In this document: piece after piece, positions 10,535-34,956 of the stretch
How positions within the stretch are numbered: position 1 is the stretch's first letter
How the letters are laid out: each line of letters opens with the position of its first letter
Origin: a virus
DNA: 43,503 nt
Virus record (IMG/VR): IMGVR_UViG_3300006339_000004
Coordinates: 1 to 43,503 of that record
Strand: one strand, 5' to 3'
Position numbers and translations under genes: made by a program
Notes under the pieces: model-generated
Seen by the model: the letters and a program-made list of their open reading frames with translations, nothing else
Databases searched by the model: none
What the model was told of the DNA's origin: nothing

Positions 10535-10567
10535 TTTAAATTCCTTTTATTTATATGGTTACATTTA

Positions 10568-10976: not shown

Positions 10977-11585
10977 CTATTCTTCTTCGTATATAATGTA
11001 GTCCTTATATTTGTTGATACTTCTTTTTAAAATTTCATAGTGTTTTTGTTTATTAACCCAAAAATGAGTAAAAAGTATAAATCTATCAGGATCATAATTA
11101 CCACCATGAGTTGTATCTGTACTTCGTATAACACACCAATCAGTATCTATTGGCATTTTAGCTAAAACTGTTTCTCCATTATTTTTTTGAATATAAGGAT
11201 TTTTAATATTGTTATCATATTGTATTGTCATTCGATAGCCACATGGTTGTAAACTTTTTTCATGTTTCCATAAATCTGCGTTTTTATCTGGTGTTAAAAA
11301 ATCAATATGCATTTCAGTAGCTTTTAAATAATTATTAATTCTAACATTAACTAAATGATCAATTGGTAAATTTTTATCAATATATTTTGTTAGAGAAGAT
11401 TCTTCAATCCACGATGATTTACTATAATTTTTATTTGTTGTAGTAAATTTTTGATATTGAAATGCTTGAGCACCTGTTCCATCATCCGGCGGTGAGTCAC
11501 CAACAAAATTATCTATAAGATCTTTTTTATATTGATATTTTGGAATGTCGACTGGCATCCATAAAATATTATCAAAATTATTCAT
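10977..11585 (-). CDS. 2-oxoglutarate/Fe(II) oxygenase-like (AspH-type double-stranded beta-helix) protein
   Basis: A 202-residue protein with a plausible facial-triad pattern: H93-x-D95 in ATEMHIDFLTPD, a distal histidine H160 in DTTHGG, and R168 in PDRFILFTHFWV, with CGYRMTIQY as an intervening strand. These spacings fit the jelly-roll hydroxylases related to aspartyl/asparaginyl beta-hydroxylase, which use 2-oxoglutarate and oxygen to hydroxylate proteins or small molecules. The similarity is at the motif level only, so a related non-catalytic cupin is possible. It is the last enzyme of the radical-SAM run in transcription order. Confidence 0.55.
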   Translation of the reverse strand: MNNFDNILWMPVDIPKYQYKKDLIDNFVGDSPPDDGTGAQAFQYQKFTTTNKNYSKSSWIEESSLTKYIDKNLPIDHLVNVRINNYLKATEMHIDFLTPDKNADLWKHEKSLQPCGYRMTIQYDNNIKNPYIQKNNGETVLAKMPIDTDWCVIRSTDTTHGGNYDPDRFILFTHFWVNKQKHYEILKRSINKYKDYIIYEEE

Positions 11586-11594
11586 ATTTCTTTC

Positions 11595-12176
11595 TTAACG
11601 TTTTTTAAATACAGTCATAAAATGTCTTTGTTGTCCTTCATCTTCAGTAAGTATAGAATCAACTTTTTCCGAAGAAATAATATCCAAATATTCTTGATCT
11701 CTCCATCCAAATGCTGTAAGAGGATCATCATTTCCATGAGCTGATACTGATGCTACCATCATTCCATTTTTTTCTAAAGAATCTGAAAAGAATTTTGCTG
11801 TATCTGATTGAAGATGTGATTTGTTAAATCCTCCAATAATTGTTATACATTTATATTTTCTTGGTAATGGAAATTCTTTCATATCATGCAAAATTATGTC
11901 ACGATAATTAGTCGCCTCAAATGTATCAATCATTTTTTGATTAACATCATATCCATCTATAATATAATCATTATTATTAAAACCAATACCAATCTGACCA
12001 TTACCACATGCAACATCTGCTATTTCAGTACCTAATTCAAAATTCCTTTTTACCCAATCACATGCATAACGTATAGGACCTTCCATCCAACCGACCTTCA
12101 TTGTCCAAGCGTGATAATCCCAATCCTTATATAATTCTTCAACACTTTTACTATAAACTTCATCAAGCCAAGTCAT
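11595..12176 (-). CDS. Class I SAM-dependent methyltransferase
   Basis: A 193-residue protein. Motif I is IADVACGNGQIG (52-63), which binds the SAM methionine and ribose, motif II ends in YDVNQKMIDTF, and motif III/IV includes LHDMKEFPLPRKYKCITIIGG. The first 50 residues (MTWLDEVYSKSVEELY) form a helical cap commonly seen on small-molecule methyltransferases. It lies between an oxygenase-like gene and a TauD-like dioxygenase, so it probably methylates the island's product or an intermediate; this is context only. Confidence 0.82.
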   Translation of the reverse strand: MTWLDEVYSKSVEELYKDWDYHAWTMKVGWMEGPIRYACDWVKRNFELGTEIADVACGNGQIGIGFNNNDYIIDGYDVNQKMIDTFEATNYRDIILHDMKEFPLPRKYKCITIIGGFNKSHLQSDTAKFFSDSLEKNGMMVASVSAHGNDDPLTAFGWRDQEYLDIISSEKVDSILTEDEGQQRHFMTVFKKR

Positions 12177-12179
12177 ATT

Positions 12180-13061
12180 TTATTCCTTTATAATAGTTGT
12201 GTAATCAAATGCGACTCTCCATAATTCTCTAGACTTATTCACAACATGTGAACGTCTATGTATAGTATACAATTGATCCATAATTAATAAATCTCCCTTT
12301 TTAAATACAAAATGTTTTTGATATATTGACCTATCTAATATTTTTTTAAGTTTATCTTTTATAATATTTACATCTATCAACTTTCCATTTTTCCATGCCT
12401 TTTCTGTTAAAGATGGTTGCCAATATAAAAATTCTTCTCCACCAATTGGATGAACATTCACAATTGACATGCGTTCATCTCCCTTATGATGTGCCGGAAT
12501 AGTATAATCTTTCACAACAGCAATCTCATTATCCTTGCCGGCCATTGTGTATTTCACTTCATGCGCCATCATGTTCCCAATTGCTTCCCGGTCAGCCCGA
12601 TCCTTTTGTGCGTCATCTATAGATCCGAATACGCCATAATTAAAATTATTTAATTGTATTTCAACAGTACGCCAGTAATCTTTTTCATTATTAGGTAAAT
12701 CTAAAAAAGATCTTCTTTGATCTAATAAACTAAAAACAGTATCACGACATTCTTCCACACAATACAAAGCAGTTAATATTTCTTTAAAATCTCCTATATG
12801 TATCATAGTACCATCCCCATGCCACTCTAAATCTGCCATACCAAACAAACCTTTATACATTACTCTCGATATATCTGGATTATCTTTTGGATTAAAAGGC
12901 ATGTAACCCAACACATCATCGTCTGTATTTCCTATACGCCTACAATAATTAACTAATTGAGATTGAGTTAAATTCTGTTCGTGATAAAAAGTATAGCCAT
13001 GTTTTAATACTTTCTGTATTTCTGATTTTAATTCTAAATCTGTAAATTCTAATACTTGCAT
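12180..13061 (-). CDS. TauD/TfdA-family 2-oxoglutarate dioxygenase
   Basis: A 293-residue enzyme, the expected size of TauD relatives. Iron ligands are visible: H81-x-D83 in LEWHGDGTMIHIG, distal H268 in YTIHRRSHVV, and R278/R282 in RELWRVAFDYT for binding 2-oxoglutarate. The family hydroxylates small molecules such as taurine, gamma-butyrobetaine or carrier-bound amino acids in natural-product pathways. The start is MQVLEF at 13061, and the gene is one base from the preceding adenylating enzyme, a pairing seen in biosynthetic clusters where an activated acyl or amino-acyl group is hydroxylated. The substrate is unknown. Confidence 0.85.
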   Translation of the reverse strand: MQVLEFTDLELKSEIQKVLKHGYTFYHEQNLTQSQLVNYCRRIGNTDDDVLGYMPFNPKDNPDISRVMYKGLFGMADLEWHGDGTMIHIGDFKEILTALYCVEECRDTVFSLLDQRRSFLDLPNNEKDYWRTVEIQLNNFNYGVFGSIDDAQKDRADREAIGNMMAHEVKYTMAGKDNEIAVVKDYTIPAHHKGDERMSIVNVHPIGGEEFLYWQPSLTEKAWKNGKLIDVNIIKDKLKKILDRSIYQKHFVFKKGDLLIMDQLYTIHRRSHVVNKSRELWRVAFDYTTIIKE

Positions 13062-14486
13062 TTATATTTCACTATGTGGTTTAATACTCAATGTTGATAT
13101 TATTTCATTAGGAAAATCATCTAACAAACTTACTAATTTTGATTTTTGATGTTTCGTTTTTCCACCATAATACAATTTTTCAGTAACATGATATATATTA
13201 TGCGGACGTTTATATTTTTGAAGTTCTTCAAACCGTTTAGCAAGATTATTAATATCAGCCGATCCTGTATAAATTACATAATGTATTTCATCACGAGAAC
13301 AACTTGATACCTCATTAACTCCTGGTTCTAGTAATGCTTGAGCCTCTACTAATCCTGTGTAAACTTTTACGCCATCTTTCATAAAAATTACATCATCAAA
13401 AACTCTACCATCATAATACCATTTTCCGTTCGCAATTTTCATTTTATCACCATCAGTCATCCAATCATTAAGTCCATACTTGTACCACAATACGCCCCCA
13501 TCATCTACTTTTAATTCTCCCCAATAATAAGTTTTATAAAAACCATAAAAATTATCTAATGAATCTCCTGGCCTATATTCAGATCTTGTATGACAATCCG
13601 CTTCAGTGCTCGCCATTACATTATAAATTACTTTCCATTTAAACTTTTTCTCAATATCTCTAATAATATTTTCTCCCGTATGCCCTCCAGCAAATTCCCA
13701 ATAATCTACCTCAAAATCAAAATCATCAGGACATGCATCAAGTAATCTTTTTACAGCATTAGGATAAGACGCCACAAGATTTGGTTTCACTTTTTGAAAT
13801 TGTTCTGGAATATTATCCACTGTTTCATTTATAAAATGAATTGTTCCGCCTGTATAATAAGCTCTAGCTAAATTCCAAACAAGATAGGTTGATTCAAATC
13901 CTCCATTTTGTAACATTATGGGTCTTTTATTATTAAAAAGTTCAGGGGATACTTCTTTCAAATGTCCGGTCATAGAACCCATTGTACAACCCCTCAATGT
14001 TTCCCCATTAACATTAGCTTGAGCATGATCCTCATAATCCCAAAAAAATGGCCATAATTCAAATATAGGTTTTACTGTAGTACCACTAGTCATTCCTCTA
14101 TACATCTCATTGGGGTGTAATAATGTGGAAGGAATTTTGCCCTCACTATCTGGTTCATGTAACATTTTAATTTTATTTGAACGTATAACACAACTGGCAT
14201 TACTGTCACCAATTAAAGAATCTAATTCTATATTTGATTGATCTGCTGAAGCTTGACTAGCTGATCCACCATTTTTTATACTAGCAAGAATCCATAACAT
14301 ATCATCCAGAGTTTTAACTTCTTCAGCTACTACAAAAACAACATGAGGTCCCAATCCGTGTTTTTTTAAAATTTCAATTTTTTCATCTAACATGTTATGT
14401 AAATTTTTCCATGTAACATGTTCTGTTGATAAACTTATGAATACATCATCTTCATTAAGCGGTGCTTGATATTGTTTTAGTGTCAT
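13062..14486 (-). CDS. Adenylate-forming (ANL superfamily) enzyme, acyl/aminoacyl-activating type
   Basis: A 474-residue enzyme with ANL core motifs in order: phosphate loop MTSGTTVKP (132-140), the A5 motif YNVMASTE, the A7-like TDGDKMK, the A8 hinge YYDGRVFDDVIFMKDGVKVYT and a C-terminal GGKTKHQKSK that could supply the catalytic A10 lysine. It activates a carboxylate as an acyl-adenylate, then transfers it to CoA, a carrier protein or another acceptor. It is slightly shorter than typical acyl-CoA ligases, and the A3 loop ends in V-K-P rather than G-x-P-K. Located between the TauD-like dioxygenase and a small cupin-like protein. No carrier-protein gene was seen nearby. Confidence 0.83.
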   Translation of the reverse strand: MTLKQYQAPLNEDDVFISLSTEHVTWKNLHNMLDEKIEILKKHGLGPHVVFVVAEEVKTLDDMLWILASIKNGGSASQASADQSNIELDSLIGDSNASCVIRSNKIKMLHEPDSEGKIPSTLLHPNEMYRGMTSGTTVKPIFELWPFFWDYEDHAQANVNGETLRGCTMGSMTGHLKEVSPELFNNKRPIMLQNGGFESTYLVWNLARAYYTGGTIHFINETVDNIPEQFQKVKPNLVASYPNAVKRLLDACPDDFDFEVDYWEFAGGHTGENIIRDIEKKFKWKVIYNVMASTEADCHTRSEYRPGDSLDNFYGFYKTYYWGELKVDDGGVLWYKYGLNDWMTDGDKMKIANGKWYYDGRVFDDVIFMKDGVKVYTGLVEAQALLEPGVNEVSSCSRDEIHYVIYTGSADINNLAKRFEELQKYKRPHNIYHVTEKLYYGGKTKHQKSKLVSLLDDFPNEIISTLSIKPHSEI

Positions 14487-14932
14487 ATTTTCTCTTCAGG
14501 ATAATACCACCATCCAGCATCTGGTTCATATTTAAATATCGATATTCCCACTCTTTCAGTTTCAATATTTTCTATTGAATGTTCTATACCAGCATTAAAC
14601 TTGTGCCATTTTTTTTCTGGTATACATGTTCTATAAAGTTCTTTACCTTTGTCCCACCACACAGTTTCTACATTGCTGCCACCTGCTTGTAAAATATAAT
14701 TATAATTTGTAGTCCTATCAACATCAATATGTTTGGGTATACCATTTCTTAAAATTTGATACTTGAAATTATCACATTCAGGAAATAAATGTTTTAGAAA
14801 ATTTGTTAACTCATCTTCACAATAATAAATTCCGTATATTTCTTTATTTCCTGGCCAAATATTTTCTTTTAATTTTATTGATTCAGTATCTAAAAAACAA
14901 GGTGGGCCTGGTAAATCTAAAAATTCAATCAT
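14483..14932 (-). CDS. Small 2-oxoglutarate/Fe(II) oxygenase-like or cupin protein
   Basis: A 149-residue protein with H68-x-D70 in GIPKHIDVDR, a distal H118 in AGIEHSIEN and R127 in ERVGISIF, in the order and spacing of a double-stranded beta-helix with an iron site. YNYILQAGG and TVWWDKGKELY would form connecting strands. It is much shorter than standard hydroxylases (about 200), so it may be a minimal domain or a cupin with another role. It overlaps the adenylating enzyme by four bases (ATGA), supporting joint translation with it. Confidence 0.5.
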   Translation of the reverse strand: MIEFLDLPGPPCFLDTESIKLKENIWPGNKEIYGIYYCEDELTNFLKHLFPECDNFKYQILRNGIPKHIDVDRTTNYNYILQAGGSNVETVWWDKGKELYRTCIPEKKWHKFNAGIEHSIENIETERVGISIFKYEPDAGWWYYPEEKI

Positions 14933-15578
14933 TTTTTCTTATCTCTATCAAATTTTTAAGAGTTTCATATACATACATTTTATATTCTTCATCTGTACCC
15001 TCAAATAAATCACGCATAACTGCATCTTTATTTTCTTCTAATCTTTTTGCATGAGATGTGAGATAATTTGGTCTAAAATCTGACAAGTTTAAATAAGCTG
15101 GAAAGTTTGCAGTAGTTTTTAAATAATGCTCAACAACAACATTTATATCATTTGGTATTATTTCTTCTATCCTAGCATTAGGAAACGTTGCTTTTATTTT
15201 TGACTTTGTTACATGCACAGGATACATTATATATTTTCCACTTTCCATTATTTCTAAACCACCTCGTGCCTCAAACAGTTTTTCAAATAATGGATAATAT
15301 TCATCAATATCATTATAGTAAGGTTCAATTACATTAAATAATGGGGGTAACATTTTGCCGTCTATCATTCTATCAAAATGATTTGGAGCAACTAATCTGC
15401 GTGATATTGAATATTCATTGATTGATGTATCAAGTGGAACTATACCATTTTCTTTACAAGAATACCAATATACGTCATCATTATCATTAGCAAGGTTTCT
15501 GCCTAATCTATGTCCACCCGCACCTTGTTCAAATGCAATGAATAAAAATTTATCATGTTCAAATAAGTCTACCATCAT
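14925..15578 (-). CDS. Unknown soluble protein with a glycine-rich N-terminal loop
   Basis: A 217-residue protein. I chose the tandem ATG at 15573-15578 (MMVDLFEHDKFLFIAFEQ) over an upstream TTG because the hydrophobic strand FLFIAFEQGAGGHRLGRNLA then starts naturally near the N-terminus. That strand followed by a GAGGHRLGR loop is reminiscent of a phosphate- or nucleotide-binding loop and of sulfotransferase-type P-loops, but the match is too weak to assign. The rest has YIMYPVHVTKSKIKATFP and a helical C-terminus. It overlaps the end of the small adenylation gene by 20 bases. Function unknown. Confidence 0.5.
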   Translation of the reverse strand: MMVDLFEHDKFLFIAFEQGAGGHRLGRNLANDNDDVYWYSCKENGIVPLDTSINEYSISRRLVAPNHFDRMIDGKMLPPLFNVIEPYYNDIDEYYPLFEKLFEARGGLEIMESGKYIMYPVHVTKSKIKATFPNARIEEIIPNDINVVVEHYLKTTANFPAYLNLSDFRPNYLTSHAKRLEENKDAVMRDLFEGTDEEYKMYVYETLKNLIEIRKND

Positions 15579-16254
15579 AATACATTCTATTATTATTATA
15601 GTGGGATTCAATTAAATAAACTAAATCATTTGTATTATACCAATCATTATAAATGCACGTATCTCCCCTTACAAATAATTTACCATCTTCAATCTTCCAA
15701 TCACAATAATACGTATCACCCAATATTGTTTCTTTTCTTTTAACTTCTTGTATTTGATCCAAATTATAAAACACTTTATTAATTGTTAAGGGTCCTATTT
15801 CACTCATACCCCAATTTGCCATAAATGTTGCTCCTTTGTTTACAAATGATTCTATAATATGCCATTCAACAGGATTGGAACCACAAGTAATCCATATACC
15901 TTTTAAATTTAAATCCTTAAATCCTTTTGTTTTAATAATTGCTTTTGCATGATCTGGAGCTAAATGAGTATGAGTGTATTTGTTAATTTCTTTAGAAAAT
16001 CTATACGCATTAAATTGTTCAACAGTTACTTCTGCACCAATACTAATTGCTGGTAATGTTTGTGCTAATAATCCTCCTGCATGTTCCATTTTACATACGG
16101 TATAGATTTTAGAATTCTTTGATATTTTTTGACTTTCTATTGCAATCTTATTACATGCCTTTAAATTTTCTGGAGTCCTAAAAATATGTTTTTGTATTCC
16201 TGTTGTACCACTACTTTTAACAAAAACTCCTTCGCTTAACATATTCTTGTACAT
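15559..16254 (-). CDS. Miniature ANL adenylation domain
   Basis: A 231-residue protein that is essentially only the middle of an ANL enzyme. The phosphate loop KSSGTTGIQK (13-22) comes right at the N-terminus, the A5-like NWGMSEIG is in place, then YNTNDLVYLI (A7) and finally YYDGRLI (225-231), at which the reading frame stops, exactly where the hinge before the C-terminal lid would begin. Both the N-terminal roughly 150 residues and the C-terminal domain with the catalytic lysine are absent. A GGAA ribosome site precedes the chosen ATG. The protein could be a partial enzyme working with another subunit, a thiol-independent adenylating core, or a decayed copy; tight overlaps with neighbours argue that it is expressed. 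Confidence 0.72.
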   Translation of the reverse strand: MYKNMLSEGVFVKSSGTTGIQKHIFRTPENLKACNKIAIESQKISKNSKIYTVCKMEHAGGLLAQTLPAISIGAEVTVEQFNAYRFSKEINKYTHTHLAPDHAKAIIKTKGFKDLNLKGIWITCGSNPVEWHIIESFVNKGATFMANWGMSEIGPLTINKVFYNLDQIQEVKRKETILGDTYYCDWKIEDGKLFVRGDTCIYNDWYNTNDLVYLIESHYNNNRMYYDGRLI

Positions 16255-16756
16255 TTAATTTCCATATAGTTTGTTCTGTATAATATAATATAGTATCAGA
16301 TACTTTATCGAGTATTCCTTGTTTTGCTAATAAACCCATTAATTTATGATTTCGTAATGCCTTACCACTATGTTCATTGGAAATGTTTGTTGTTATATAC
16401 AAATTATCTGTAGGACAGTAATCTATGAAAACAGGAATAAAATCTCTCCAAGTTATTGTGTTCCAATTACCTTTATTCAGGCCTTTATAAGGACTTGCTC
16501 CGGGTAATTCACATCCTCGAAAATTAATCCTCCAACCATTTTCGTTTATTTCTGGTAAGGGATGACAACCTCCAACCGCAACAATTTCATCATCCTTGAT
16601 AGCACAATAATATTCTCCCCAATCTTTACACCATTCTAATTTCATAGACTTAAAGGATGAGTTATTTGTATATCCTAAGTCTTTACATTTATCACAAAAT
16701 ATTTGGAGTTTGCTATGTAGTTGATTAGTGATTGGTTTTATATTGAAAATCCCCAT
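16217..16756 (-). CDS. GNAT-like N-acetyltransferase
   Basis: A 179-residue protein from the ATG at 16754-16756 (MGIFNIKPITNQ), preferred because AGGAA sits just upstream; an upstream TTG is less likely. AIKDDEIVAVGGCHPLP resembles the beta4 strand entering the acetyl-CoA site of GNAT proteins, and the C-terminal part contains further strands and helices of suitable length, but the classic RxxGxG loop is not evident (NEHSGKALRNHKLMGLL is the nearest candidate). It overlaps the mini-adenylation gene by 38 bases and the QueC-like gene by 19. Function is tentative. Confidence 0.5.
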   Translation of the reverse strand: MGIFNIKPITNQLHSKLQIFCDKCKDLGYTNNSSFKSMKLEWCKDWGEYYCAIKDDEIVAVGGCHPLPEINENGWRINFRGCELPGASPYKGLNKGNWNTITWRDFIPVFIDYCPTDNLYITTNISNEHSGKALRNHKLMGLLAKQGILDKVSDTILYYTEQTIWKLNVQEYVKRRSFC

Positions 16757-17382
16757 GCTCTTTCCTGACACCACCAACATATACCACAATGTCCTAATTT
16801 TGGGTCTTTAACATTTTGTGCTTCCCATTCACATGATCTAGTATATACAAATAAACTATCTATTAAATTATATTCTTTATATATTTGGGCTAGTTTCTTT
16901 TTATCTATATTAATCCAGGGTGTATATGCTTTATTATTATTACGTAAAACGTCTTTCATAATAGTAGGATTTCTGTCTACTTCTGTAACTTCTTCTATAA
17001 ATGTATCAGTAATAGATTTTGGTGGATTAGCAGTAATTCCTGTATAGAAAATATTTATTAATTTATTTTTTCTATAATAATCTAATTTATCAAATATATT
17101 ACTTAATGTTTGATGGTCACAAAATGTACTATGATGTTCTATGTTTATATTTCCGGTTAATTCGATACATTTTTGAATAACATTATTAGTTGTTGTAACA
17201 TTTTTAAATTGTCTTGCTTTATTTCCAGTAGATAAAATATAGATTTTATCATTAGAATATTTCATTAAAAAGTATAAAAGCAAAGAACTATCAGCTCCGC
17301 CGCTACAACTTATACCTATAGGACCTTCATATATTTTTAAATTGACTCCGGATAAATTTAATTCTTTTTTAATTAAATTCAT
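16738..17382 (-). CDS. QueC-like PP-loop ATPase
   Basis: A 214-residue protein with the PP-loop SCSGGADSS (25-33), which binds ATP pyrophosphate, and a C-terminal zinc-type set C184, C199, C202, C205 in TRSCEWEAQ and HCGICWWCQERAWGF. That four-cysteine ending is diagnostic of QueC (7-cyano-7-deazaguanine synthase) and its relatives, which adenylate a carboxylate and replace it with nitrogen. No QueD, FolE or other preQ0-pathway enzyme is visible here, so it may catalyse a different amidation or nitrile-type step. QueC-like proteins also occur in some defence systems. Overlaps the neighbouring hydroxylase-like gene by four bases. Confidence 0.8.
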   Translation of the reverse strand: MNLIKKELNLSGVNLKIYEGPIGISCSGGADSSLLLYFLMKYSNDKIYILSTGNKARQFKNVTTTNNVIQKCIELTGNINIEHHSTFCDHQTLSNIFDKLDYYRKNKLINIFYTGITANPPKSITDTFIEEVTEVDRNPTIMKDVLRNNNKAYTPWINIDKKKLAQIYKEYNLIDSLFVYTRSCEWEAQNVKDPKLGHCGICWWCQERAWGFSI

Positions 17383-18011
17383 GGTTCTATTAGATTTGTT
17401 ACTGTTGACACAGATTCTTCTGTTAATTTAATATTCATTATTAATACAATATGATCATCCTCATCATTGGCATTAAATATTGTATGCCGTTTACAAGTAT
17501 TTAAAAAATATAAACTACCATAATTCCAATGTAATACATTATCATATTGATATATAAAATATCCCCCATCTAACGGATTACATACTAGTAAAGGGACAAT
17601 TAATCTAAAACTATCTATTGTAGATCCCATATTATCTACATGACTTGGAAAAAATCCGCCTGGTTTTAATTTTAAAATATGAGATCTAAATAACCATTCT
17701 TTAAAAGGATCACAATATAATTTTAATACATCATAAACAGGTGTTGGTACAATAAAATCAGATTCAGTTATATTTGTATTATTTTCTTTATTATACTCAT
17801 ATAAACTATCTAAATCAGGCCCAGGTCCTAAATTGCCGTCTAAATTAGTTACACTCAATCCCCAACGATTTATATGTTTTCTAGGATTATATTTTGTCCA
17901 ATTATCATCAAATTGGATTAATCTTTCTAACATAGTCTTCGAATTTTGATATATGTTTAATTTAACTTGATCCCCATATGCTGTTAGAGTATTAAATAAT
18001 TCAAAACTCAT
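17379..18011 (-). CDS. Aspartyl/asparaginyl beta-hydroxylase-like oxygenase
   Basis: A 210-residue protein from the ATG at 18009-18011 (MSFELFNTLTAY), chosen because AGGAG precedes it. Motifs fit the AspH-like double-stranded beta-helix: LKPGGFFPSHVDN with H124-x-D126, the strand SFRLIVPLL, and the distal H176 in FLNTCKRHTIFN. It would use 2-oxoglutarate and iron to hydroxylate a peptide or small substrate. It overlaps the upstream radical-SAM gene by 11 bases. Together with neighbours it suggests radical chemistry followed by hydroxylation, but no target is identifiable. Confidence 0.75.
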   Translation of the reverse strand: MSFELFNTLTAYGDQVKLNIYQNSKTMLERLIQFDDNWTKYNPRKHINRWGLSVTNLDGNLGPGPDLDSLYEYNKENNTNITESDFIVPTPVYDVLKLYCDPFKEWLFRSHILKLKPGGFFPSHVDNMGSTIDSFRLIVPLLVCNPLDGGYFIYQYDNVLHWNYGSLYFLNTCKRHTIFNANDEDDHIVLIMNIKLTEESVSTVTNLIEP

Positions 18012-21502: not shown

Positions 21503-21508
21503 AATTAA

Positions 21509-28300: not shown

Positions 28301-29587
28301 AACCTGCCAACCCTCATAATTATTTAAAATGTCCCATCGCCAATATTGATGTTGTTGTCTATTCTTTACAAATGTTTCCCAATGTTGTACAAAATTTTCT
28401 AATCCTCCCCATCTAGTACATTCTTCTGTCCATAACTCATCAAATTCTATAATATCATCACAAAATTCTATTAAACTATCCTCACTATTTGAATTATCTT
28501 TAAATTTTATATCAACCAATTCATTAAATATATCTTTAAATGTTTGTTTTTTTAGATTCCAATGTTCTGACAATAATCTCTTAAAAGATAAAGCGGGTCC
28601 ACTTATATCATAAAATATAACATTTTCTTTTCCTGAATAATTAAAAGTATTTAAAATATGATTTCCAACAAATCCTGCAGATAATACCACATAATTATCA
28701 AATTGTTTTGGTGCATTTATTCTTTCTAATAAGTTATAAAAATTATTTTCAGGTATTTCTGTTGGATATGGTTCTGAATTAAATGCATATAATTTACTAG
28801 AATATCCTCTAGTTGTAAGTGAAGTTTGATATCTAACCTTAGTTTCCATATCATTAAGCATTTTTTTATCTTGCTGTACTTCATCCAAATAAAAATATTC
28901 TTTACTTTCTCTTATTTTATAATTAAATCCTTCAACATTATATCCATATTTAAAAACTGTATTTAAAAAGTTCCACCCCCATCCCATACGTGATCCCTTT
29001 TCAATTTTTTTCATTTTTAATTTATAATCTCTCGGCTTTAACCATAGAGGTGTATAATCATCATGAAAATCTTCAACACATCTTTCAGGTTCATATAATT
29101 CTTCTATTGTCAAAATACTAGAAGTGTGCAGGTCAGGGCAATGAATATCTTTATAAATTTCCAAATTTAAAAACATCATTTGAGGATGTATACTATACCA
29201 ATTTCTATTCAAATGAATTCTACTTTTAGCATCATTGTCAACAATATGACAAAGCATAGCTGTATTTGGAGAAGCTTCTGCTTGTTCAATCAAATAAAAA
29301 CACGTATCATGACTAAGACGATGTCCCGGTTTTTGAATTAATGCATATTTCCTCTCACTAGATAATGCATCTTTGATACATTCTTGTAAATCATTATTTT
29401 CACTGTAATATATGTTTGCATGAATGTTGGCCAATTGTCCTTGAAGTTTCGATTTTGTAAACTGATCTGCAAGATCAAGTAAATATGGATCATCAATCTC
29501 ATCTTCCCAATCAGAAAAAGTTCTCCAATAGCAAAAATAAATTTCTTTTTCAGCTATCTCATTTAATACTTTATTAGAATTTAACAT
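25349..29587 (-). CDS. Giant protein: N-terminal unknown region plus two tandem radical SAM twitch modules
   Basis: A 1412-residue protein. Residues 1 to about 515 resemble the separate 390-residue protein encoded at 20330-21502, with a Rossmann-like strand VIFYDISGP. The first radical-SAM module has C527, C545/C546 and C599/C602, then CNLACRMC (C646, C650, C653) and GGEP (725-728). The second has C977, C995/C996 and C1052/C1055, then CNLACSTC (C1108, C1112, C1115) and GGEP (1179-1182). Module two is strongly related to the 459-residue protein at 33525-34904 (FCILPWMHLSTR against FCALPWIHLSTR). All cluster ligands appear intact in both modules. Two radical-SAM barrels in one chain may act sequentially on one substrate. 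Confidence 0.87.
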   Translation of the reverse strand: MLNSNKVLNEIAEKEIYFCYWRTFSDWEDEIDDPYLLDLADQFTKSKLQGQLANIHANIYYSENNDLQECIKDALSSERKYALIQKPGHRLSHDTCFYLIEQAEASPNTAMLCHIVDNDAKSRIHLNRNWYSIHPQMMFLNLEIYKDIHCPDLHTSSILTIEELYEPERCVEDFHDDYTPLWLKPRDYKLKMKKIEKGSRMGWGWNFLNTVFKYGYNVEGFNYKIRESKEYFYLDEVQQDKKMLNDMETKVRYQTSLTTRGYSSKLYAFNSEPYPTEIPENNFYNLLERINAPKQFDNYVVLSAGFVGNHILNTFNYSGKENVIFYDISGPALSFKRLLSEHWNLKKQTFKDIFNELVDIKFKDNSNSEDSLIEFCDDIIEFDELWTEECTRWGGLENFVQHWETFVKNRQQHQYWRWDILNNYEGWQVNEINNLKGNTFIWVSNVYANEYALWEHKNYSNIFKQLKKLISKLNDQVYVYGFLPDIKLDDDDSERIYNSFGRKVLQGEIYTKKFLQENINIPTKNFCILPWIHMTSSVAGWYRVCCDSNKNLRVGSDSKDVTSQDALHANVATIKDAFYSPEMNKIRKQFLNNERPNICSTCWKREDMGIASLRIAMNGRFADNIDTFNLKKPKLKYLDIKYDNKCNLACRMCSAGSSDQHQKELLIQVNDGKRIPNHFDYGEYENNNKYKKELSHRLSSHAEKPFLEQDVISALPELEVLKVTGGEPTVNHKFLNAVDYAIKNDYAKNIVLDLTTNGTKFNSDLLEKISHFKFCRFRISIDGTDKLYDYIRYPFNWDMLNKSVNLMFSHFKEKEYLQNRVSVGFSIVAQPYNIFNLDDIYKWADELYKKYYTNLSEHDGPDAMIDVAVDFQMIPQSSELNSEFIDHDLLKLALEKFEANTKEVVGIKPRLKFFQNFVKNTIINNIKDLKHYQLKKTTRFYDNIRNQQYKNHLASEMIDYLDNAPPAPWKKEDSGFCILPWMHLSTRTTGNMQLCCTANSSSDDEHPQIGCNRKDDGQLVNLKHDNWKDYWNTNYMKTVRSEMLKGHKPRECQKCYKEEEVGYNSKRIWENKKWKKKLDYNSIVWHTKDDGEAPAKIHYVDLKLGNKCNLACSTCNPDDSSFWIKDWTKMKNSNISSDLQNKLSWSKGKDQNGGYNWYKNEQTWKELSEQPISDAYILGGEPTIINEFKDFIKNSPKTTNLRFNTNAEEIDDKLFSMLKRLSLVEIAVSLDGVEKRHEWLRYPSKLDTTMQNLIKYNNFAKNNEHIKINIDTTASIFNIMHIPDFIKWKLTQDEISEINKWPEHGGMIGIHFLHSPNFLSVKCLTKEYKEKISDKYNDFYKWLEENFEYYDRVLEKPNGIKKLKSLIEFMWSEDQSNLLPQTFEYIQNLENIRQLNFSIIFPELKELYNEYK

Positions 29588-30227
29588 TATTATATCCGTT
29601 TATGAAATTTTTCCAACTTCTTCTGACAATAGGATTCCAAAATTCTGAATCCATATTACATCCATTAGTAAGAATATGATAACGTGGCTTATCACTATTA
29701 TTAATACACTCATGGTTCCATACATTAGAAAAAAGCCACGTAGATCCATTATCAATTGGGATATTGCCCCATCCTGATACATGAAAATCACAACCTTTTG
29801 GATGTTGAATAGAGAAATGCAGGATACTTGGACCCATTATATCAAGGGTAAGTGGTTGGTCTTCAATATCTCTATCATTATGTAAAAAAATTGAACCTCC
29901 TGGATCAATTTTCATAAATCTTGTTCTTTCATGAGATATTATTCCCGCGTGGTTTTGTAAAAAGTCTTTTGTTTTTGGACATTTATCCGCTATACTTGTC
30001 CAATCATATCTAACATGTTCTAATTCTTCATGATAAACACTGCCGAATTCACCACTAATTCCATGTAATGCTAAACTAGACCAATTCTTTCCACTACTTT
30101 CTCTATATGGTATCCATTCATCTAATTGTTCAACTTCATGTAAAATGTCTTCCCAACGAAATTGAAAGTCAAGCATTAACCACGGCAATGCACAATTATC
30201 TATTGCGTAACTATATTCTTTATTCAT
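29574..30227 (-). CDS. Aspartyl/asparaginyl beta-hydroxylase-like oxygenase
   Basis: A 217-residue protein with a well-formed AspH-like signature: RFMKIDPGGSIFLHNDRD containing H116-x-D118, the strand SILHFSIQHP, a distal H172 in VWNHECINN and R182 in KPRYHILTNG, the arginine expected to bind 2-oxoglutarate. It would hydroxylate Asp/Asn in peptides or a related small molecule. It overlaps the giant radical-SAM gene by 14 bases and the lone SPASM-like gene by eight. Of the putative oxygenases here this and the TauD-like one have the clearest motif sets. Confidence 0.82.
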   Translation of the reverse strand: MNKEYSYAIDNCALPWLMLDFQFRWEDILHEVEQLDEWIPYRESSGKNWSSLALHGISGEFGSVYHEELEHVRYDWTSIADKCPKTKDFLQNHAGIISHERTRFMKIDPGGSIFLHNDRDIEDQPLTLDIMGPSILHFSIQHPKGCDFHVSGWGNIPIDNGSTWLFSNVWNHECINNSDKPRYHILTNGCNMDSEFWNPIVRRSWKNFINGYNNVKF

Positions 30228-30528
30228 TTTTTTTATCTATAAAAGTGTCTCTATTTTTTAATTCACATGTCTGTTTACATTTTTTAACAGGCTCATCTGA
30301 ACTCCATGAATTTATAATACCATTAAATAACGGGCCATCTAATATTTCTTGTATTGTTTGACTATACAAACTATTATTATATTTTGCATTAAATTCACCA
30401 AACAATGTTTTTGGGGGATGTCCAGCCGCCATATTTAATGATTCAGCATTTACATAACAACACGGTATTAATTCACCAACATGATTTATAAATATTCTTT
30501 TTTGATTTCCATATTTACATTCTATCAT
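30220..30528 (-). CDS. Stand-alone SPASM-like domain protein
   Basis: A 102-residue protein that is just a SPASM-type cysteine region. KRIFINHVGELIPCCYV (C23, C24) and the ending CKQTCEL (C84, C88) correspond to IFVTAEGHVFPCCW and VCANKC in the C-terminal part of the radical-SAM protein at 32485-33546. TIQEILDGPLFNGIINSWS matches TIKEIVNGPFFKAIEDSWS there. It thus resembles the auxiliary-cluster domain without a catalytic barrel. A barrel without such a domain is encoded at 31895-32485. Four-base overlaps on both sides of the intervening gene suggest coordinated synthesis. It may pair in trans with that core. Confidence 0.75.
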   Translation of the reverse strand: MIECKYGNQKRIFINHVGELIPCCYVNAESLNMAAGHPPKTLFGEFNAKYNNSLYSQTIQEILDGPLFNGIINSWSSDEPVKKCKQTCELKNRDTFIDKKNE

Positions 30529-31898
30529 ATTACTTTCTTTATACTATCCAAAAAATAATCTGCTAGCCATTGATTTGACTTTTTTCCAGGATGACTTAAA
30601 TCTCTTGCATAATCATCATAAGCAGAAGGAAGTTTATTTTTTTCAATGTATTCAATTACTTGTTCTCTCGTAGCCTGTTTTCCATCTTCAACAAAATTCT
30701 CTATCATTTCTGCCATCTCACTAATTGATGTAACATTTATCTGTGCATCTACTTTATTAAAAGGTATCTCATAATCATCAGCCAAAAAATAATGAAAGGA
30801 AGCCTTATTTTCATAACAAACACCTTTAACAGCATTAATATTTCTTGATGCATTTAATTTATTCATATATATATTTCTGGACATATGATTAACCAATTGT
30901 TTTACATATTGATCAAAATATATATCCCCCTCTTCACCCTGATGAGATCCGAACGGATTTGTACAAATATCAAATTCAAATAAGTCAGTATATTCAGTTT
31001 TATGTTGAATAAAAGAAACATCTTCCCACCAGTAAGGCTCTTTCTGGAGCGCCAATTTCCAATTAGATTCAAAACCCTTTAATATAAGATATTTAAATAA
31101 ATTTTCATTAAAATGAAAAGTACGAGTAATATTAGGACCTAAAAATACTACATGTTTCGGTTTTAAAAGAGGTATTAAATATTGACTAAAAAGATATGCT
31201 TGATCATGACTACCTCCTGATAAACCTACATTATAGTTTTTTAATCCCAAAGTTTTACTAAGTATATTAGAAAAACGATCTTTTTCTGCTAAACCTATAC
31301 CATAAACATAACTACATCCTAATATTAAAATACTATCACCTTTATTGTCAAAATCAAATTCATCAGACCTAAATCCCCAACTATTATGTCTATACCAAGG
31401 CACTTCTTCACATTCAGTCTGTAAATAATTTATTTGTTTTTTTGATAATGTATATGGCCAATCTTGGCCATCATGAATCATTTTAATTTTCTCAAATTGT
31501 TCTGTATATCCACACATATCCAGTACATATTTGCCGTAACTGGAATTTTGAAATTTATCATATCGCTCTTTATTATCTTGCCCCATATAAAGATAATCGC
31601 CATTACGTCTATGCCAAGATGTATGCAAAAATGGTATAATTTGTTTTTCTGTAAAATCATGATTTTGTAAATATCCTATAAAATGAGTCAATTCTGTATC
31701 ATGAACATTAAAATTTGTTAAATCAAATTCTCCATTATCAATTCTTTGACTAATTTTAGAAATCTTTTCTTCTGAACCATCTTTAATAGGGCATTTAGGT
31801 AAAATATCATCTTCCCATTCTAAACAAAATCCTTTAGTTTTGAAATCTTTTCCTAATTTAAACTTAGCATTATTGGCATTTAGATGTTCTTCACTCAT
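30525..31898 (-). CDS. SGNH/GDSL hydrolase-like protein
   Basis: A 457-residue protein. The C-terminal half shows an SGNH-hydrolase pattern: SILILGCSYVYGIGL, where the serine of GCSY takes the place of the GDS nucleophile, GLSGGSHDQAYLF as the glycine block, HVVFLGPN, and near the end DLSHPGKKSNQWLADYF, which would provide the Asp-x-x-His of block V. The first about 190 residues have no recognisable motif. Such enzymes are esterases or acyltransferases that trim or add acyl groups, often on sugars. The gene sits between the separated radical-SAM core and SPASM-like genes, with four-base ATGA overlaps at both ends. Confidence 0.68.
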   Translation of the reverse strand: MSEEHLNANNAKFKLGKDFKTKGFCLEWEDDILPKCPIKDGSEEKISKISQRIDNGEFDLTNFNVHDTELTHFIGYLQNHDFTEKQIIPFLHTSWHRRNGDYLYMGQDNKERYDKFQNSSYGKYVLDMCGYTEQFEKIKMIHDGQDWPYTLSKKQINYLQTECEEVPWYRHNSWGFRSDEFDFDNKGDSILILGCSYVYGIGLAEKDRFSNILSKTLGLKNYNVGLSGGSHDQAYLFSQYLIPLLKPKHVVFLGPNITRTFHFNENLFKYLILKGFESNWKLALQKEPYWWEDVSFIQHKTEYTDLFEFDICTNPFGSHQGEEGDIYFDQYVKQLVNHMSRNIYMNKLNASRNINAVKGVCYENKASFHYFLADDYEIPFNKVDAQINVTSISEMAEMIENFVEDGKQATREQVIEYIEKNKLPSAYDDYARDLSHPGKKSNQWLADYFLDSIKKVI

Positions 31899-32485
31899 TT
31901 CACTTCTCCACTACCTGTTCTATGTGAATATATTTTTCTAAATCTTTTAAATCCTTCAACTTTAGACATATTCTCTGCCTCCTTTATTAAATGTTCATTA
32001 TGATCAAATACAATAAATTGCCATGTTGCATTGCCGCCCGCACCTATAAATGCTCTATAATTTTCCTGCACCTTTTTAAAATTAGATCCAATTCTATATT
32101 TTTCCAATGATTTTTGATCTGTTCCATCAAGACCAAAAAATACAGATAACTTTCTTCTACCCAGATCTTCCCAGAATTTAATAGTTCGAGTAGATCCATT
32201 AGTAGCAACATTAACATCTGAAAAATCTAAAAAATAATCTACTATGTCTATAAATTCCGGATGAGTAGTGGGTTCATCGACTGATCCACAAAAATTTATA
32301 ATTTTCAAATTGGGTAAATATCCTTTCGGAATCCATTTTTTTAAATCTTCAAATTTAATATAAGACTTATTAAGTAATGGTCCAACTTTATCATGCATTT
32401 CTTGACGAAGACATCCTGGACATTTAATATTACAAAAACTAGTAAGTTCTATATCAATCCATTCTATGGTATTTTTATTCCACAT
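31895..32485 (-). CDS. Radical SAM core lacking its C-terminal SPASM region
   Basis: A 196-residue protein. The motif CNIKCPGC (C18, C22, C25) and a following FCGSVDEP segment are parallel to CNAACPQC and CGNLGDP in the neighbouring 353-residue protein, and the two align along their barrels, including NATWQFIVFDHNEH against HAKWDFIVFKHNEH. The frame ends at KIYSHRTGSGEVK, where the neighbour continues into its SPASM extension. The usual GGE motif is replaced by this C-G-x-x-x-x-P form in both. It is probably the catalytic half of a split enzyme, completed by the protein at 30220-30528. Starts one base into the preceding gene's stop. Confidence 0.82.
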   Translation of the reverse strand: MWNKNTIEWIDIELTSFCNIKCPGCLRQEMHDKVGPLLNKSYIKFEDLKKWIPKGYLPNLKIINFCGSVDEPTTHPEFIDIVDYFLDFSDVNVATNGSTRTIKFWEDLGRRKLSVFFGLDGTDQKSLEKYRIGSNFKKVQENYRAFIGAGGNATWQFIVFDHNEHLIKEAENMSKVEGFKRFRKIYSHRTGSGEVK

Positions 32486-33546
32486 TATAAAAATTGTTCA
32501 TTATATGCATCAAATCCTATTCCACATTTGTTAGCGCAAACTTTAAGTTTTCCATCTTTAACACTGGAACATGACCAAGAGTCTTCTATGGCTTTGAAAA
32601 ACGGGCCGTTAACTATTTCTTTTATAGTATGTTTTCTGAGACTGATATTTTCATAATCTCCTATTAATTTCCAAATAGGTGCTTCGCGGGGTTTCCAATA
32701 CCATTTATATTGTTGTCCCGCTGTCCAACAACAAGGAAACACATGTCCTTCTGCCGTAACAAATATTTCCTTCTTATCTATTGCTTTACAATTAATAGGT
32801 GTTGTATCATAATATGCATCCATACTACCATGTTCAGCAACTAAATCTTTTTCTTTTTTTAGTGCAACATTAACAAACTCTAAACTGGGTTTTTCTAACT
32901 TCTGAGTATTTTCGCCTTTTCGATTTGTTGCTTGATGGGCGTCTTTACCTTTATGTTGAACAGTCGAAAAGAAACGTCCTGTTTTTTTGACTTGAAATTT
33001 TTCAAAGCCCATATCCATCGCCAATTGTCTTGCCTCATCTACCTGATGTTCATTATGTTTAAACACTATAAAATCCCATTTAGCATGACCACCTCGATCA
33101 ATAAACGCTTTGGCATTCTCCATTACTCTTTCCCATTTAACTTTTTGCCTATATAAATGATTAGTATCCTCTAAACCATCTATACTAAATGTTACAACTA
33201 CATCTATATCTGCTAAATCTTCCCAAAAATATTCTGGTTTAGCGCCTCCATTGGTATTCATACCTAACCACATATTGGGATTAGCATTTCTAAAAGATCT
33301 AAATCCCTCGATTGCATAATTGCTTATGCATGGATCACCTAAATTACCACACATATACATAGAGTCCAACTGTTCTACAAAATGCCAAGGAAACATTTCA
33401 TAATAATCCATAGAACTTAACATTGCATTTGTGAGATAGGGATTATCTTTACCACCATTTATATTACGGTCACATTGGGGGCAAGCGGCATTACATCCCT
33501 GAGTAGGTTCAATATGAACACTTTTTATTTCATCATATCTATACAT
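32485..33546 (-). CDS. Radical SAM/SPASM protein
   Basis: A 353-residue complete radical-SAM/SPASM enzyme. The SAM motif is CNAACPQC (C18, C22, C25), and CGNLGDP (66-72) takes the GGE position. The barrel extends to about residue 190, followed by a linker and a C-terminal SPASM region with C253, C272/C273, C337 and C341. SPASM proteins commonly modify ribosomal peptides or act as protein-maturation enzymes, but others work on small molecules. It overlaps the preceding twitch radical-SAM gene by 22 bases. The smaller genes at 31895 and 30220 are related to its two halves, so an ancestral full-length copy is suggested. Confidence 0.87.
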   Translation of the reverse strand: MYRYDEIKSVHIEPTQGCNAACPQCDRNINGGKDNPYLTNAMLSSMDYYEMFPWHFVEQLDSMYMCGNLGDPCISNYAIEGFRSFRNANPNMWLGMNTNGGAKPEYFWEDLADIDVVVTFSIDGLEDTNHLYRQKVKWERVMENAKAFIDRGGHAKWDFIVFKHNEHQVDEARQLAMDMGFEKFQVKKTGRFFSTVQHKGKDAHQATNRKGENTQKLEKPSLEFVNVALKKEKDLVAEHGSMDAYYDTTPINCKAIDKKEIFVTAEGHVFPCCWTAGQQYKWYWKPREAPIWKLIGDYENISLRKHTIKEIVNGPFFKAIEDSWSCSSVKDGKLKVCANKCGIGFDAYNEQFL

Positions 33547-34904
33547 AATTCTGGAAAAACTTTTTCAAATTGTTTATGTGGTCTTAATCTATTTAAATGT
33601 GAAATATATTCTTGAAATTCGGGAAGTCTTTCAGACCAATCTTCATCATCCATGAAATTTAATAGTCCTTCATATCTTTTAATTCCATAGGATGAATTTG
33701 CCCAATCATCAAATTCTATATTTTCTACACCGGTACATAATTTCCAATTATCTTCCATCCAAGGGAAAAACTCTTCTTCATATTTCTCTCTAATTTTATA
33801 TTTTAATTCTTTTGGTATTATTTTAACATTTAATTGTGGTGGCCAATATGCCAAATGACAATTGATCATTCCTGCTCCCCCAGGCCATTTATTTATTTTC
33901 TTATATCCTTGCTGAACTTTCCAAGATATAAATTCTGGAAGATAATTAATACTCAATGCCATAATAGTTGTTGCGGTTGTTACTGTAATATTATCATCAG
34001 TCTGATCCATTAATTTTAAATTCTTTTCAATAATTTTCCATCTACTAGGATAGCGAATATAATCATTATACTTTCCCCAACTATCTATTGAAAAATGAAA
34101 TATTACATGTTTAAATTCACTCCACAACTTAAATAACTTATCTGGTAATTCAATACCATTTGAATTATATCTTAATTCAATTTTAGGAGCATAGCCCATT
34201 TCAATTACTTTTTCAAGTAAGGTATAATGCTCGTCAATAATAGTTGATTCACCTCCTGCAAAATATAATTGATAAATGTTTGGTATTTGTTCATATAAAT
34301 CTTCCCAAAAATGAGGACTCATTTTATGCCAATTATACGTTCCGCCGTCTTCATTTTTTTTCCATTGACTAGTATCTTTCAATCTTTCATTTTTTATTTT
34401 AGGATAAAAATCTAACCACTCTTTATTCCATCCAGAAGAATCATTTGGAGAACACATCACACAAGCCAATTGACATTTACTTCCCATTCGTAAGTCAATA
34501 TATCTAAGTTTGGGGGCAACTGATCCATCTTCATTTGTGTTTTTTACTAATTCATTTAAATCATAAATTTCTCCCCATTTATTAGTTTCCCAAACTCTTT
34601 TAGGAATATGGCCCGCATCTTCTTCTTTAAAACATTTTTCACATTGAGGGGGGCGTTCACCTTTCATCATCATCAATCTAGTACGCCTCATATAATCATT
34701 ATTCCACGCATCTAATAATCGAGTGGTATTTAAATTAGCACATTGGCCATCTTCATTTCTTATATTTGCTTTTGTTCTTATGGAAGAATTTGGATCTTGA
34801 ACAGCAGACGCATTCGCAGTACAACATACTCTCATATGTCCGTTGGGTCTTGTTGATAAATGTATCCACGGCAATGCGCAAAAAGTGGGGGAAGGATAAT
34901 CCAT
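33525..34904 (-). CDS. Radical SAM protein with N-terminal twitch-type cysteine domain, first gene of the run
   Basis: A 459-residue protein from ATG 34902-34904 (MDYPSPTFCALPW); a GTG twelve bases upstream (34914-34916) is possible but lies without a ribosome site and nearer the promoter. Twitch cysteines are C9, C27/C28 and C88/C91, the SAM motif is CQLACVMC (C144, C148, C151), and GGES replaces GGEP at 217-220. It is strikingly similar to the second module of the giant 1412-residue protein, which indicates duplication within this genome. A CATAAATA late-promoter-like box is 34 bases upstream, making this the first gene of a roughly 24-kb overlapping run. Confidence 0.87.
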   Translation of the reverse strand: MDYPSPTFCALPWIHLSTRPNGHMRVCCTANASAVQDPNSSIRTKANIRNEDGQCANLNTTRLLDAWNNDYMRRTRLMMMKGERPPQCEKCFKEEDAGHIPKRVWETNKWGEIYDLNELVKNTNEDGSVAPKLRYIDLRMGSKCQLACVMCSPNDSSGWNKEWLDFYPKIKNERLKDTSQWKKNEDGGTYNWHKMSPHFWEDLYEQIPNIYQLYFAGGESTIIDEHYTLLEKVIEMGYAPKIELRYNSNGIELPDKLFKLWSEFKHVIFHFSIDSWGKYNDYIRYPSRWKIIEKNLKLMDQTDDNITVTTATTIMALSINYLPEFISWKVQQGYKKINKWPGGAGMINCHLAYWPPQLNVKIIPKELKYKIREKYEEEFFPWMEDNWKLCTGVENIEFDDWANSSYGIKRYEGLLNFMDDEDWSERLPEFQEYISHLNRLRPHKQFEKVFPELCIDMMK

Positions 34905-34914
34905 AAATTGTCTC

Positions 34915-34922
34915 ACTAAATA
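34915..34922 (+). promoter_or_regulatory. Candidate late promoter (ACTAAATA) for the plus-strand glycosyltransferase cluster
   Basis: ACTAAATA, six of eight to the T4 late box, identical in sequence to the element proposed before gp13. It lies 34 bases before the ATG at 34957. It overlaps the 5' end of the opposite-strand gene only if the GTG start at 34916 is used. Confidence 0.45.
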
Positions 34923-34938
34923 TTAATAACTATAATTA

Positions 34939-34946: not shown

Positions 34947-34956
34947 CTACTAAAAT

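Follow-up and report, generated by a model that had tools for sequence, protein, structure and literature searches.

A conserved, tail-fibre-linked module of multiple radical-SAM enzymes in uncultivated T4-like phages

The gene run described here represents one version of a module of multiple radical-SAM (rSAM) enzymes that is conserved, mobile and linked to tail fibres in uncultivated T4-like phages. Its recurrent core is GT3 (a putative glycosyltransferase family), M36214 (a methyltransferase-fold family), optionally a 74-aa protein (h74), an rSAM-SPASM protein, the N-twitch rSAM NTwiA and the rSAM protein r18001, accompanied by lineage-specific tailoring genes (extra N-twitch rSAMs, a QueC-like ATPase, a PLP enzyme, oxygenases, a nitroreductase-like protein and a carbamoyltransferase). 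Hundreds of uncultivated phages carry this core in a common orientation and close to tail-fibre genes, and the module is also found on chromosomes of Bdellovibrionota (Bdellovibrio-like predatory bacteria). The likely role of this conserved enzyme system is to build or decorate a structure at a surface. Its best reading, to which we assign a probability of roughly 0.45, is a mobile pathway for a surface glycoconjugate that is heavily modified and linked to host recognition.

Gene content of the radical-SAM run

The window (the whole 43,503-nt stretch analyzed, IMG/VR record IMGVR_UViG_3300006339_000004) comes from an uncultivated T4-like phage and has eight ORFs on a single strand (18001–34916) that together encode nine Radical_SAM domains. 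Its T4-like myovirus genes include those for neck, head closure and sheath stabilizer (phrog_211, phrog_460 and phrog_227), and the neck gene matches 2,060 phage records, the best among the matches listed being T4-like phages. An earlier note on this sequence had placed CxxxCxxC motifs in genes at 18001, 19029, 21509, 22882, 25349 (two), 31895, 32485 and 33525, and exactly these eight ORFs carry them. A PF04055 scan likewise returned nine domains, eight of which exceed the curated cut-off (E 1e-17 to 2e-5); the ninth, in 21509, scores 251 bits against NF033640 (N_Twi_rSAM, cut-off 170 bits). The note's count of five proteins with six N-terminal twitch cysteine sets was also borne out, as the modules in 19029, 21509, 22882, 25349 (two) and 33525 all exceed the NF033640 cut-off (251 to 570 bits); 18001, 31895 and 32485 fail it. 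In alignments of 12 and 41 N-twitch modules, C13, C31, C92 and C95, the CxxxCxxC motif and GGE show little or no variation, and the four N-terminal cysteines are invariant across the 41. By curated score the six window modules thus belong to NF033640, a family without assigned function that occurs here in multicopy modules with fixed partners in phages.

All genes of the run lie on the minus strand. The module anchor NTwiA (33525–34916, 463 aa, NF033640 395.8 bits) has the C13/C31/C92/C95 set plus CQLACVMC and is followed by the rSAM-SPASM protein (32485–33546, 353 aa) and an rSAM domain without its own SPASM (31895–32485, 196 aa, PF04055 37.5 bits). SPASM domains (PF13186) are above cut-off in 32485, 33525 and a stand-alone ORF at 30220–30528 (102 aa, 24.1 bits, cut-off 21.5). 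The remaining rSAM genes encode a 1412-aa protein with an N-terminal domain and two N-twitch modules (25349–29587, NF033640 570 bits over two stretches), an N-twitch rSAM with a C-terminal extension (22882–25362, 336.7 bits), two further N-twitch rSAMs (21509–22885, 458 aa, 251 bits; 19029–20333, 434 aa, 262.9 bits) and r18001, which lacks the N-twitch set (18001–19032, 343 aa, PF04055 57.5 bits). By alignment, the protein at 20330–21502 is related to the N-terminal domain of 25349 and has homologues in viral and Bdellovibrionota loci; a fusion of the 25349 type also occurs in another locus (L135, 9092–13345, 1417 aa).

The other enzyme classes that the earlier note saw interleaved with these genes were recovered in part. 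Pfam cut-offs are passed by a TauD-family 2OG oxygenase (12180–13061, PF02668 36.5 bits, cut-off 27), an AMP-binding enzyme (13062–14486, PF00501 35.2 bits, cut-off 29.9), a short adenylating-enzyme (ANL) core (15559–16254, 231 aa, PF00501 41.3 bits, with a similar 246-aa form in relative G023), one Asp/Asn beta-hydroxylase-like protein (29574–30227, Asp_Arg_Hydrox, PF05118 45.1 bits, cut-off 22.6) and a QueC-like PP-loop ATPase with a C-terminal Cys set (16738–17382, PF06508 27.1 bits, cut-off 22). Below cut-off are a methyltransferase-like protein (11595–12176, PF13649 E 9.5e-5) and a weakly AspH/2OG-oxygenase-like protein (17379–18047, PF05118 E 0.0065). Assigned by sequence reading, with no Pfam support, are a GNAT-like protein (16217–16789, 75% conserved in G023), an SGNH-hydrolase-like gene (30525–31898) and two oxygenase-like proteins (14483–14932 and 10977–11585). 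A conserved protein at 14925–15611 has a 73% identical G023 homologue. Packing is tight, as previously described, with recurrent exact ATGA overlaps, though with the start codons used some junctions are gaps (up to 9 bp) and overlaps extend to 53 bp, not the 1 to 40 bases given earlier. Late expression, by contrast with these earlier claims, found no support. No T4 late-promoter octamer precedes the run, and across the window this octamer occurs less often than expected by chance.

The module reaches past the 10977–34904 span of the earlier note. It also includes M36214 itself (36214–37107, plus strand), a core member predicted to have a class I SAM-methyltransferase fold and an N-terminal coiled coil (AF2 pLDDT 82.6), and a glycosyltransferase-like gene related to the fibre-linked GT8 family (38396–39187, minus strand, module HMM E 7e-16). 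Upstream of the run, also on the minus strand, lie a putative fibre-like protein with Q-Y-[ST]-G repeats and no PHROG match (39604–40698) and a virion structural/baseplate-fibre-like protein (40712–41698, phrog_32294 1e-11, phrog_6005 1e-9).

Alignments indicate that the stand-alone SPASM domain at 30220 is the detached partner of rSAM 31895, with the SGNH-like gene inserted exactly between them. The SPASM ORF aligns with the C terminus of an intact 31895 homologue, and 31895 is 72% identical to the N-terminal part of the intact G018 gene (34826–35758). In a second locus (L420), where the SPASM half is 68% conserved, the two halves are joined directly at a single ATGA; in the window the SGNH-like gene has an ATGA on either side. 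The insertion is ruled out as the cause of the split, because the L420 split exists without it.

The C-terminal part of 22882 (about residues 480–826) appears to be a PLP fold-type-I aminotransferase-like domain. Three motifs expected of this fold type are invariant in alignment: the PLP aspartate (D185), the Schiff-base lysine (S210xxK213) and the phosphate-binding arginine motif (G218xxR221xG223). The assignment is by motif, since PDB profile searches gave zero matches and PF00155 reached just E 0.046. The domain occurs alone in other contigs, where it adjoins an N-twitch rSAM in 15/27 cases, and this adjacency and the fusion together tie the PLP enzyme to N-twitch rSAMs.

Recurrence in phages and Bdellovibrionota

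Random, unlinked occurrence of the individual genes, which the earlier note had set against a common pathway, was not seen; across hundreds of viral contigs linkage is reciprocal, one-stranded and tightly packed. NTwiA orthologues are present in at least 74 viral loci. Among NTwiA-anchored viral loci (a set of 70, 65 after dereplication, fetched solely by the 33525 orthologue), 94% have a 32485-type rSAM-SPASM, 90% additional N-twitch rSAMs, 78% GT3, 71% M36214, 70% r18001 and 51% the QueC-like PP-loop family. Searches anchored on GT3 and on h74 return the same gene set, making the association reciprocal from three independent anchors. Module genes agree in strand 1777:57, with a median gap of −8 bp, and some neighbors are fixed: QueC-like genes adjoin rSAM15 in 43/43 cases and family c9 adjoins GT3 in 128/129, while h74 adjoins M36214 in 109/128 and rSAM-SPASM in 66/128. 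In many cases tail-fibre genes immediately precede the module locus, and GT3-anchored loci contain fibre cluster c26 in 81% and the fibre-linked c17/c13/GT8 in 90–97% of cases. Canonical GT3 and h74 were not found in the window, whose lineage therefore either replaced or lacks both; h74 is also missing from G020. Gene content varies widely among close relatives. In some relatives, Nfu, FeS_assembly_P and A-type carrier genes adjoin or lie near the module.

Isolate phages (50,697 records) practically lack the module. A tblastn search of these with the 33525, 22882, 32485, 18001 and GT3 proteins yielded just three weak rSAM matches and one Pelagibacter phage match at 26%. Among bacteria, the N-twitch family is present in 41/144 Bdellovibrionota genomes vs. 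1/142 of Alphaproteobacteria. Compared with random regions, Bdellovibrionota flanks show only a slight excess of glycosyltransferase, DegT and GDSL Pfam families, which counts little toward a glycan product. In a few bacterial genomes (loci L053, L357 and L120) rSAMs sit beside what read as O-antigen/polysaccharide genes.

Related arrangements have been described in phages. The pelagimyophage host-recognition cluster, defined as the region between VrlC and gp14, contains glycosyltransferases and radical-SAM cassettes, and the region is known to be hypervariable (PMC7029224). The module appears to occupy the same T4-like structural neighborhood, flanked in the window by neck- and head-closure-type genes at one end and by fibre-like genes at the opposite end; VrlC was not identified in the window. 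The available portion of that paper names rSAM cassettes in passing and does not report conserved composition, order or reciprocal linkage. The earlier proposal that the pathway may decorate a virion component or host surface fits this position. Similarly, the T4-like environmental genome TARA_ERS488813_N000010 combines 12 rSAM genes with Fe-S supply genes, as module carriers can, but these were interpreted as Fe-S metabolism rather than as a fibre-linked module shared with bacteria (PMC5332604).

Candidate products of the module

Under the glycoconjugate reading, the rSAM enzymes would act sequentially on one precursor as radical-forming tailoring enzymes, with twitch/SPASM clusters assisting electron transfer. 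PLP, PP-loop, adenylating and oxygenase proteins could install amino, amide, acyl or hydroxyl groups. Assembly or attachment of the product may fall to the glycosyltransferase-like and methyltransferase-fold proteins; that product is most likely a glycan or glycoconjugate with heavy modification, located on tail fibres or on the envelope of the infected cell. Such a product might control adsorption or exclude competing phages, and the variable tailoring set would provide chemical diversity. Variable genes generate chemical diversity in O-antigen loci, which, like capsule loci, surround a glycosyltransferase-containing core with variable tailoring genes and apparently adjoin some bacterial copies of the module. 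Unlike those loci, the module is dominated by radical-SAM enzymes, and no Wzx/Wzy or O-antigen exporter was recognized in the window. GT3 is weakly GT2-like. That canonical GT3 and h74 are missing from the window weighs against the glycoconjugate reading. The Foldseek matches listed for the M36214 model are methyltransferases (best 3e-7), and PDB profile searches with the GT3 and M36214 families, as with PLP, gave zero significant matches.

In structure modeling, suggested earlier as a check on the cysteine motifs, NTwiA is predicted with high confidence to adopt a radical-SAM fold (AF2 pLDDT 91) closest to SPASM maturases. Its nearest solved folds are led by CteB, SkfB and SuiB at low TM-scores (about 0.3), with viperin, BlsE and anSME close behind, and the N-twitch profile finds SkfB, ChlB, BlsE and viperin in the PDB. 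CteB, SkfB and SuiB are RiPP maturases with an extra Fe-S cluster domain, as predicted for NTwiA, and peptides are frequent substrates of SPASM/twitch rSAMs. This ranking favors a peptide substrate and counts against a glycan. One alternative, somewhat unlikely in our estimation, is accordingly proteusin-like: rSAMs, oxygenases and methyltransferases would directly modify residues of a phage protein (tail fibre or h74), stabilizing or diversifying it, consistent with fibre genes upstream in many loci and with h74 being short, conserved and adjacent to M36214 and rSAM-SPASM. However, h74, the only short conserved candidate precursor, looks folded-helical, is conserved over its full length without a leader/core division and is absent from the window and G020; a search of module carriers' fibre proteins for a common repeat substrate found none. 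Relative to the known maturases, the SPASM/twitch part is N-terminal here, the genes are far more numerous and no precursor peptide was identified, and the glycosyltransferase-like partners would be left unexplained.

A small diffusible secondary metabolite (a signal, toxin or host-takeover compound), made as in a bacterial natural-product cluster, would account for the adenylating enzymes, PP-loop ATPase, PLP enzyme, carbamoyltransferase, oxygenases and many tailoring enzymes. We consider it unlikely, as no carrier protein, condensing enzyme or dedicated exporter was seen in the run and the link to the fibre region is constant. Quite improbable is the absence of any common pathway, with unrelated rSAM and metabolic genes piling up as independent auxiliary genes; the differing content of close relatives and the hypervariability of the region (PMC7029224) would suit this, but co-occurrence is reciprocal, certain neighbors are fixed and bacterial chromosomes carry the same core, all of which argues against it. 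Nucleotide chemistry, whether 7-deazaguanine-type DNA modification or viperin-like antiviral nucleotides, is very improbable: despite a QueC-like PP-loop protein and rSAM domains distantly resembling viperin, no further deazaguanine gene was recognized in the run, viperin lacks the extra cluster motif of N-twitch modules, and both NCBIfam cut-offs were missed. The PF06508 match at 16738 leaves the label "QueC-like" standing, but QueC identity itself is rejected (TIGR00364 18.2 bits, cut-off 150.3), as is viperin membership of the window rSAMs (NF038283 at most 38.7 bits, cut-off 180).

Returning to the glycoconjugate, we tentatively suggest a broader possibility, that T4-like phages and Bdellovibrionota may share a previously unrecognized biosynthetic class. 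In it, 5 to 13 radical-SAM enzymes, together with fixed partners resembling glycosyltransferases and methyltransferases, would make a surface molecule without precedent that serves to attach to, or to control, Gram-negative prey or hosts. Radical-SAM enzymes carry out chemistry that ranks among the hardest in biology, and phages are not known for deploying them in series. If true, a fibre-linked pathway with up to 13 rSAMs would represent a large hidden layer of phage–host interaction chemistry, carried by several hundred or more contigs of uncultivated aquatic phages but practically missing from isolate collections, and the common core in Bdellovibrionota offers a bacterial setting where its product could be identified.

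Radical-SAM domains and overlooked genes

The earlier finding of a radical-SAM (rSAM) gene run in this phage is genuine, and its extent is greater than first described. Across the 43.5-kb window, the nine CxxxCxxC motifs reported in the earlier note are present at the places it named, in eight minus-strand ORFs, and all nine of the proposed radical-SAM domains match PF04055 (8/9 above the curated cut-off). The six N-terminal twitch (N-twitch) modules it assigned to five ORFs are likewise members of NF033640, scoring 251–570 bits against a membership cut-off of 170 bits. In an alignment of 41 modules, the four N-terminal cysteines and GGE are conserved, as are several polar residues and CxxxCxxC, the second Cys of which is nearly invariant. 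The AlphaFold model of the protein at 33525–34916 (minus strand; family NTwiA) is confident (pLDDT 91.1, pTM 0.91), and the solved structures closest to this predicted structure are the SPASM maturases CteB, SkfB, and SuiB, followed by viperin, BlsE, and anSME.

Several module features had been missed. The C-terminal 350 residues of the protein encoded at 22882 have the motif of fold-type-I PLP enzymes, which is conserved across 16 sequences; in other contigs this domain is a separate gene, adjoining an N-twitch rSAM gene in 15/27 cases. The giant protein encoded at 25349 has a full-length counterpart of 1417 aa with two modules in another locus (L135). The plus-strand gene at 36214–37107 (family M36214), with a predicted class I methyltransferase fold, is also a module member. 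Four plus-strand genes at 34957–37735 (GT-like, two Rossmann-type, and GT8-like) break up the minus-strand run; because all four have homologues on the rSAM-gene strand in the compared record G018, this block may be inverted.

A stand-alone SPASM domain at 30220–30528 also went unnoticed. When 31895–32485 and 30220–30528 are aligned with an intact rSAM-SPASM protein of G018 (310 aa), the two together cover its whole length (72% and 51% identity). In locus L420 the two halves are neighboring ORFs with one common ATGA, while in the window an SGNH-like gene (30525–31898) lies exactly at the junction, with an ATGA stop–start overlap on each side, which indicates that the split predates the insertion. 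Both halves are retained at ~68% identity, which argues that the detached SPASM acts in trans. ATGA junctions look like seams where single genes get added, and the 30525–31898 insertion points to one way in which phage operons with translational coupling may gain gene cassettes.

Conservation as a unit and genomic setting

Scanning viral contigs with the N-twitch alignment identified at least 588 confirmed relatives. In 70 new NTwiA-anchored viral loci at least 10 kb long, among the matches listed, module HMMs found rSAM-SPASM (the family of 32485) in 94%, other N-twitch rSAMs in 90%, GT3 (a putative glycosyltransferase family) in 78%, M36214 in 71%, r18001 (18001–19032, minus strand) in 70%, QueC-like genes in 51%, and h74 (a 74-aa protein) in 50%. 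Scans anchored on GT3 (at least 596 relatives) and h74 (542 relatives) returned the same partner genes; around h74, GT3 occurs in 100%, M36214 in 98%, rSAM-SPASM in 90%, and NTwiA in 74%. All partner percentages derive from a single HMM set built from the first loci and from anchored sets that are non-random samples, and they were unchanged after dereplication (65 NTwiA-anchored loci; 62 and 31 in the other two sets). Co-occurrence as a unit, which the earlier note had proposed to check, is thus borne out by recovery of the same partners from N-twitch, GT3, and h74 anchors. Module genes are on the same strand as NTwiA in 1777 cases and on the opposite one in 57, with a median gap of −8 bp. Every gene of the rSAM15 family has a QueC-like neighbor (43/43, e.g., L195 11382–12722), and family c9 adjoins GT3 in 128/129. 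Loci contain a median of 5 and a maximum of 13 rSAM-class genes within the stretch analyzed; over whole records, PF04055 counts are 11–13 in G018, G020, and G021.

T4-type neck, head-closure, and sheath-stabilizer genes occupy one flank in the window, and fibre-like structural genes lie upstream on the opposite flank. Among the GT3-anchored matches listed, a fibre cluster and its neighbors lie ahead of the module in 81–97%. This position appears to correspond to the pelagimyophage host-recognition cluster, in which radical-SAM cassettes have been noted (PMC7029224). One published T4-like genome contains 12 rSAM genes, which were interpreted in terms of Fe-S metabolism (PMC5332604). Nfu, FeS_assembly_P, or A-type carrier genes occur near the module in some relatives. 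Relatives with 78–81% identical neck proteins keep the backbone and differ in enzyme sets; judging by these comparisons, module content is in rapid turnover.

Other genes and sites were also observed. A fibre-like protein at 39604–40698 (minus strand) carries QY[ST]G repeats (QYSGQYTGQYTGQW...) and is a possible substrate; a search of fibres from other module-carrying contigs found no such repeat. Minus-strand positions 7531–10084 encode a TctA transporter protein carried by the phage (PF01970, 268 bits) and, from sequence reading, an adjoining TctC-like exported protein; this stretch is 99–100% conserved in near relatives. The gene for a periplasmic-type amino-acid-binding protein (SBP_bac_3) at 1043–2158 (minus strand) diverges faster than its neighbors (92% vs. 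98–100%). Two TATAAATA octamers 20 bp apart at 10548–10575 (minus strand), the only copies on that strand of the window, lie directly upstream of gene 10100–10534. In contig G002, the protein encoded at 63986–65326 (= L030 3986–5326) is related to the amidinotransferase-like family of the module (HMM E 1e-56) and had no match in a Pfam search; in this phage species its gene lies far away from the module.

Occurrence in isolates and bacteria

No orthologue was found in 50,697 isolate-phage records. Matches in bacterial genomes are concentrated in Bdellovibrionota, where 41/144 genomes pass NF033640 vs. 1/142 in Alphaproteobacteria, the sole positive there being the seed genome and 2 of the 41 also having been found beforehand with the seed. 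N-twitch rSAM expansions in Bdellovibrionota genomes G024–G029 and G035 (16–37 matches each, E ≤ 0.001) are apparently undescribed in the literature searched. NTwiA occurs with rSAM-SPASM, r18001, GT3, and M36214 on long chromosomal contigs (e.g., L052, L054, L056, and L354). In a quick tree, Bdellovibrionota NTwiA proteins branch immediately outside the principal viral clade (SH-aLRT 98), with a few other viral rows deeper on long branches. Several other MAG matches are nested within the viral clade; these may come from phage contigs assigned to bacterial bins.

Proposed function

The module combines many true rSAM domains, fixed partners, and linkage to fibre genes. GT-like and methyltransferase-fold proteins would assemble or attach a precursor, radical chemistry would tailor it serially, and PLP, PP-loop, adenylating, and oxygenase proteins would add groups. 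Our preferred product is a surface glycoconjugate, on three grounds: the module has glycosyltransferase-like partners, it lies in a host-recognition setting, and a few bacterial copies, on sequence reading, adjoin apparent polysaccharide loci (L053, L357, and L120). A Pfam comparison of bacterial flanks with random regions gave only a slight excess of glycosyltransferase, DegT, and GDSL families, and the fold ranking of the predicted 33525 structure favors peptides; direct modification of residues of a phage protein (a tail fibre or h74) by the rSAMs, oxygenases, and methyltransferases is therefore a less likely but serious alternative. The module is conserved and so far uncharacterized; its enzyme families are known, as is the kind of phage region that it occupies, and there is a substantial chance that it represents a new class of system. 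Within it, rSAM15 and its QueC-like neighbor form a gene pair of biochemical interest.
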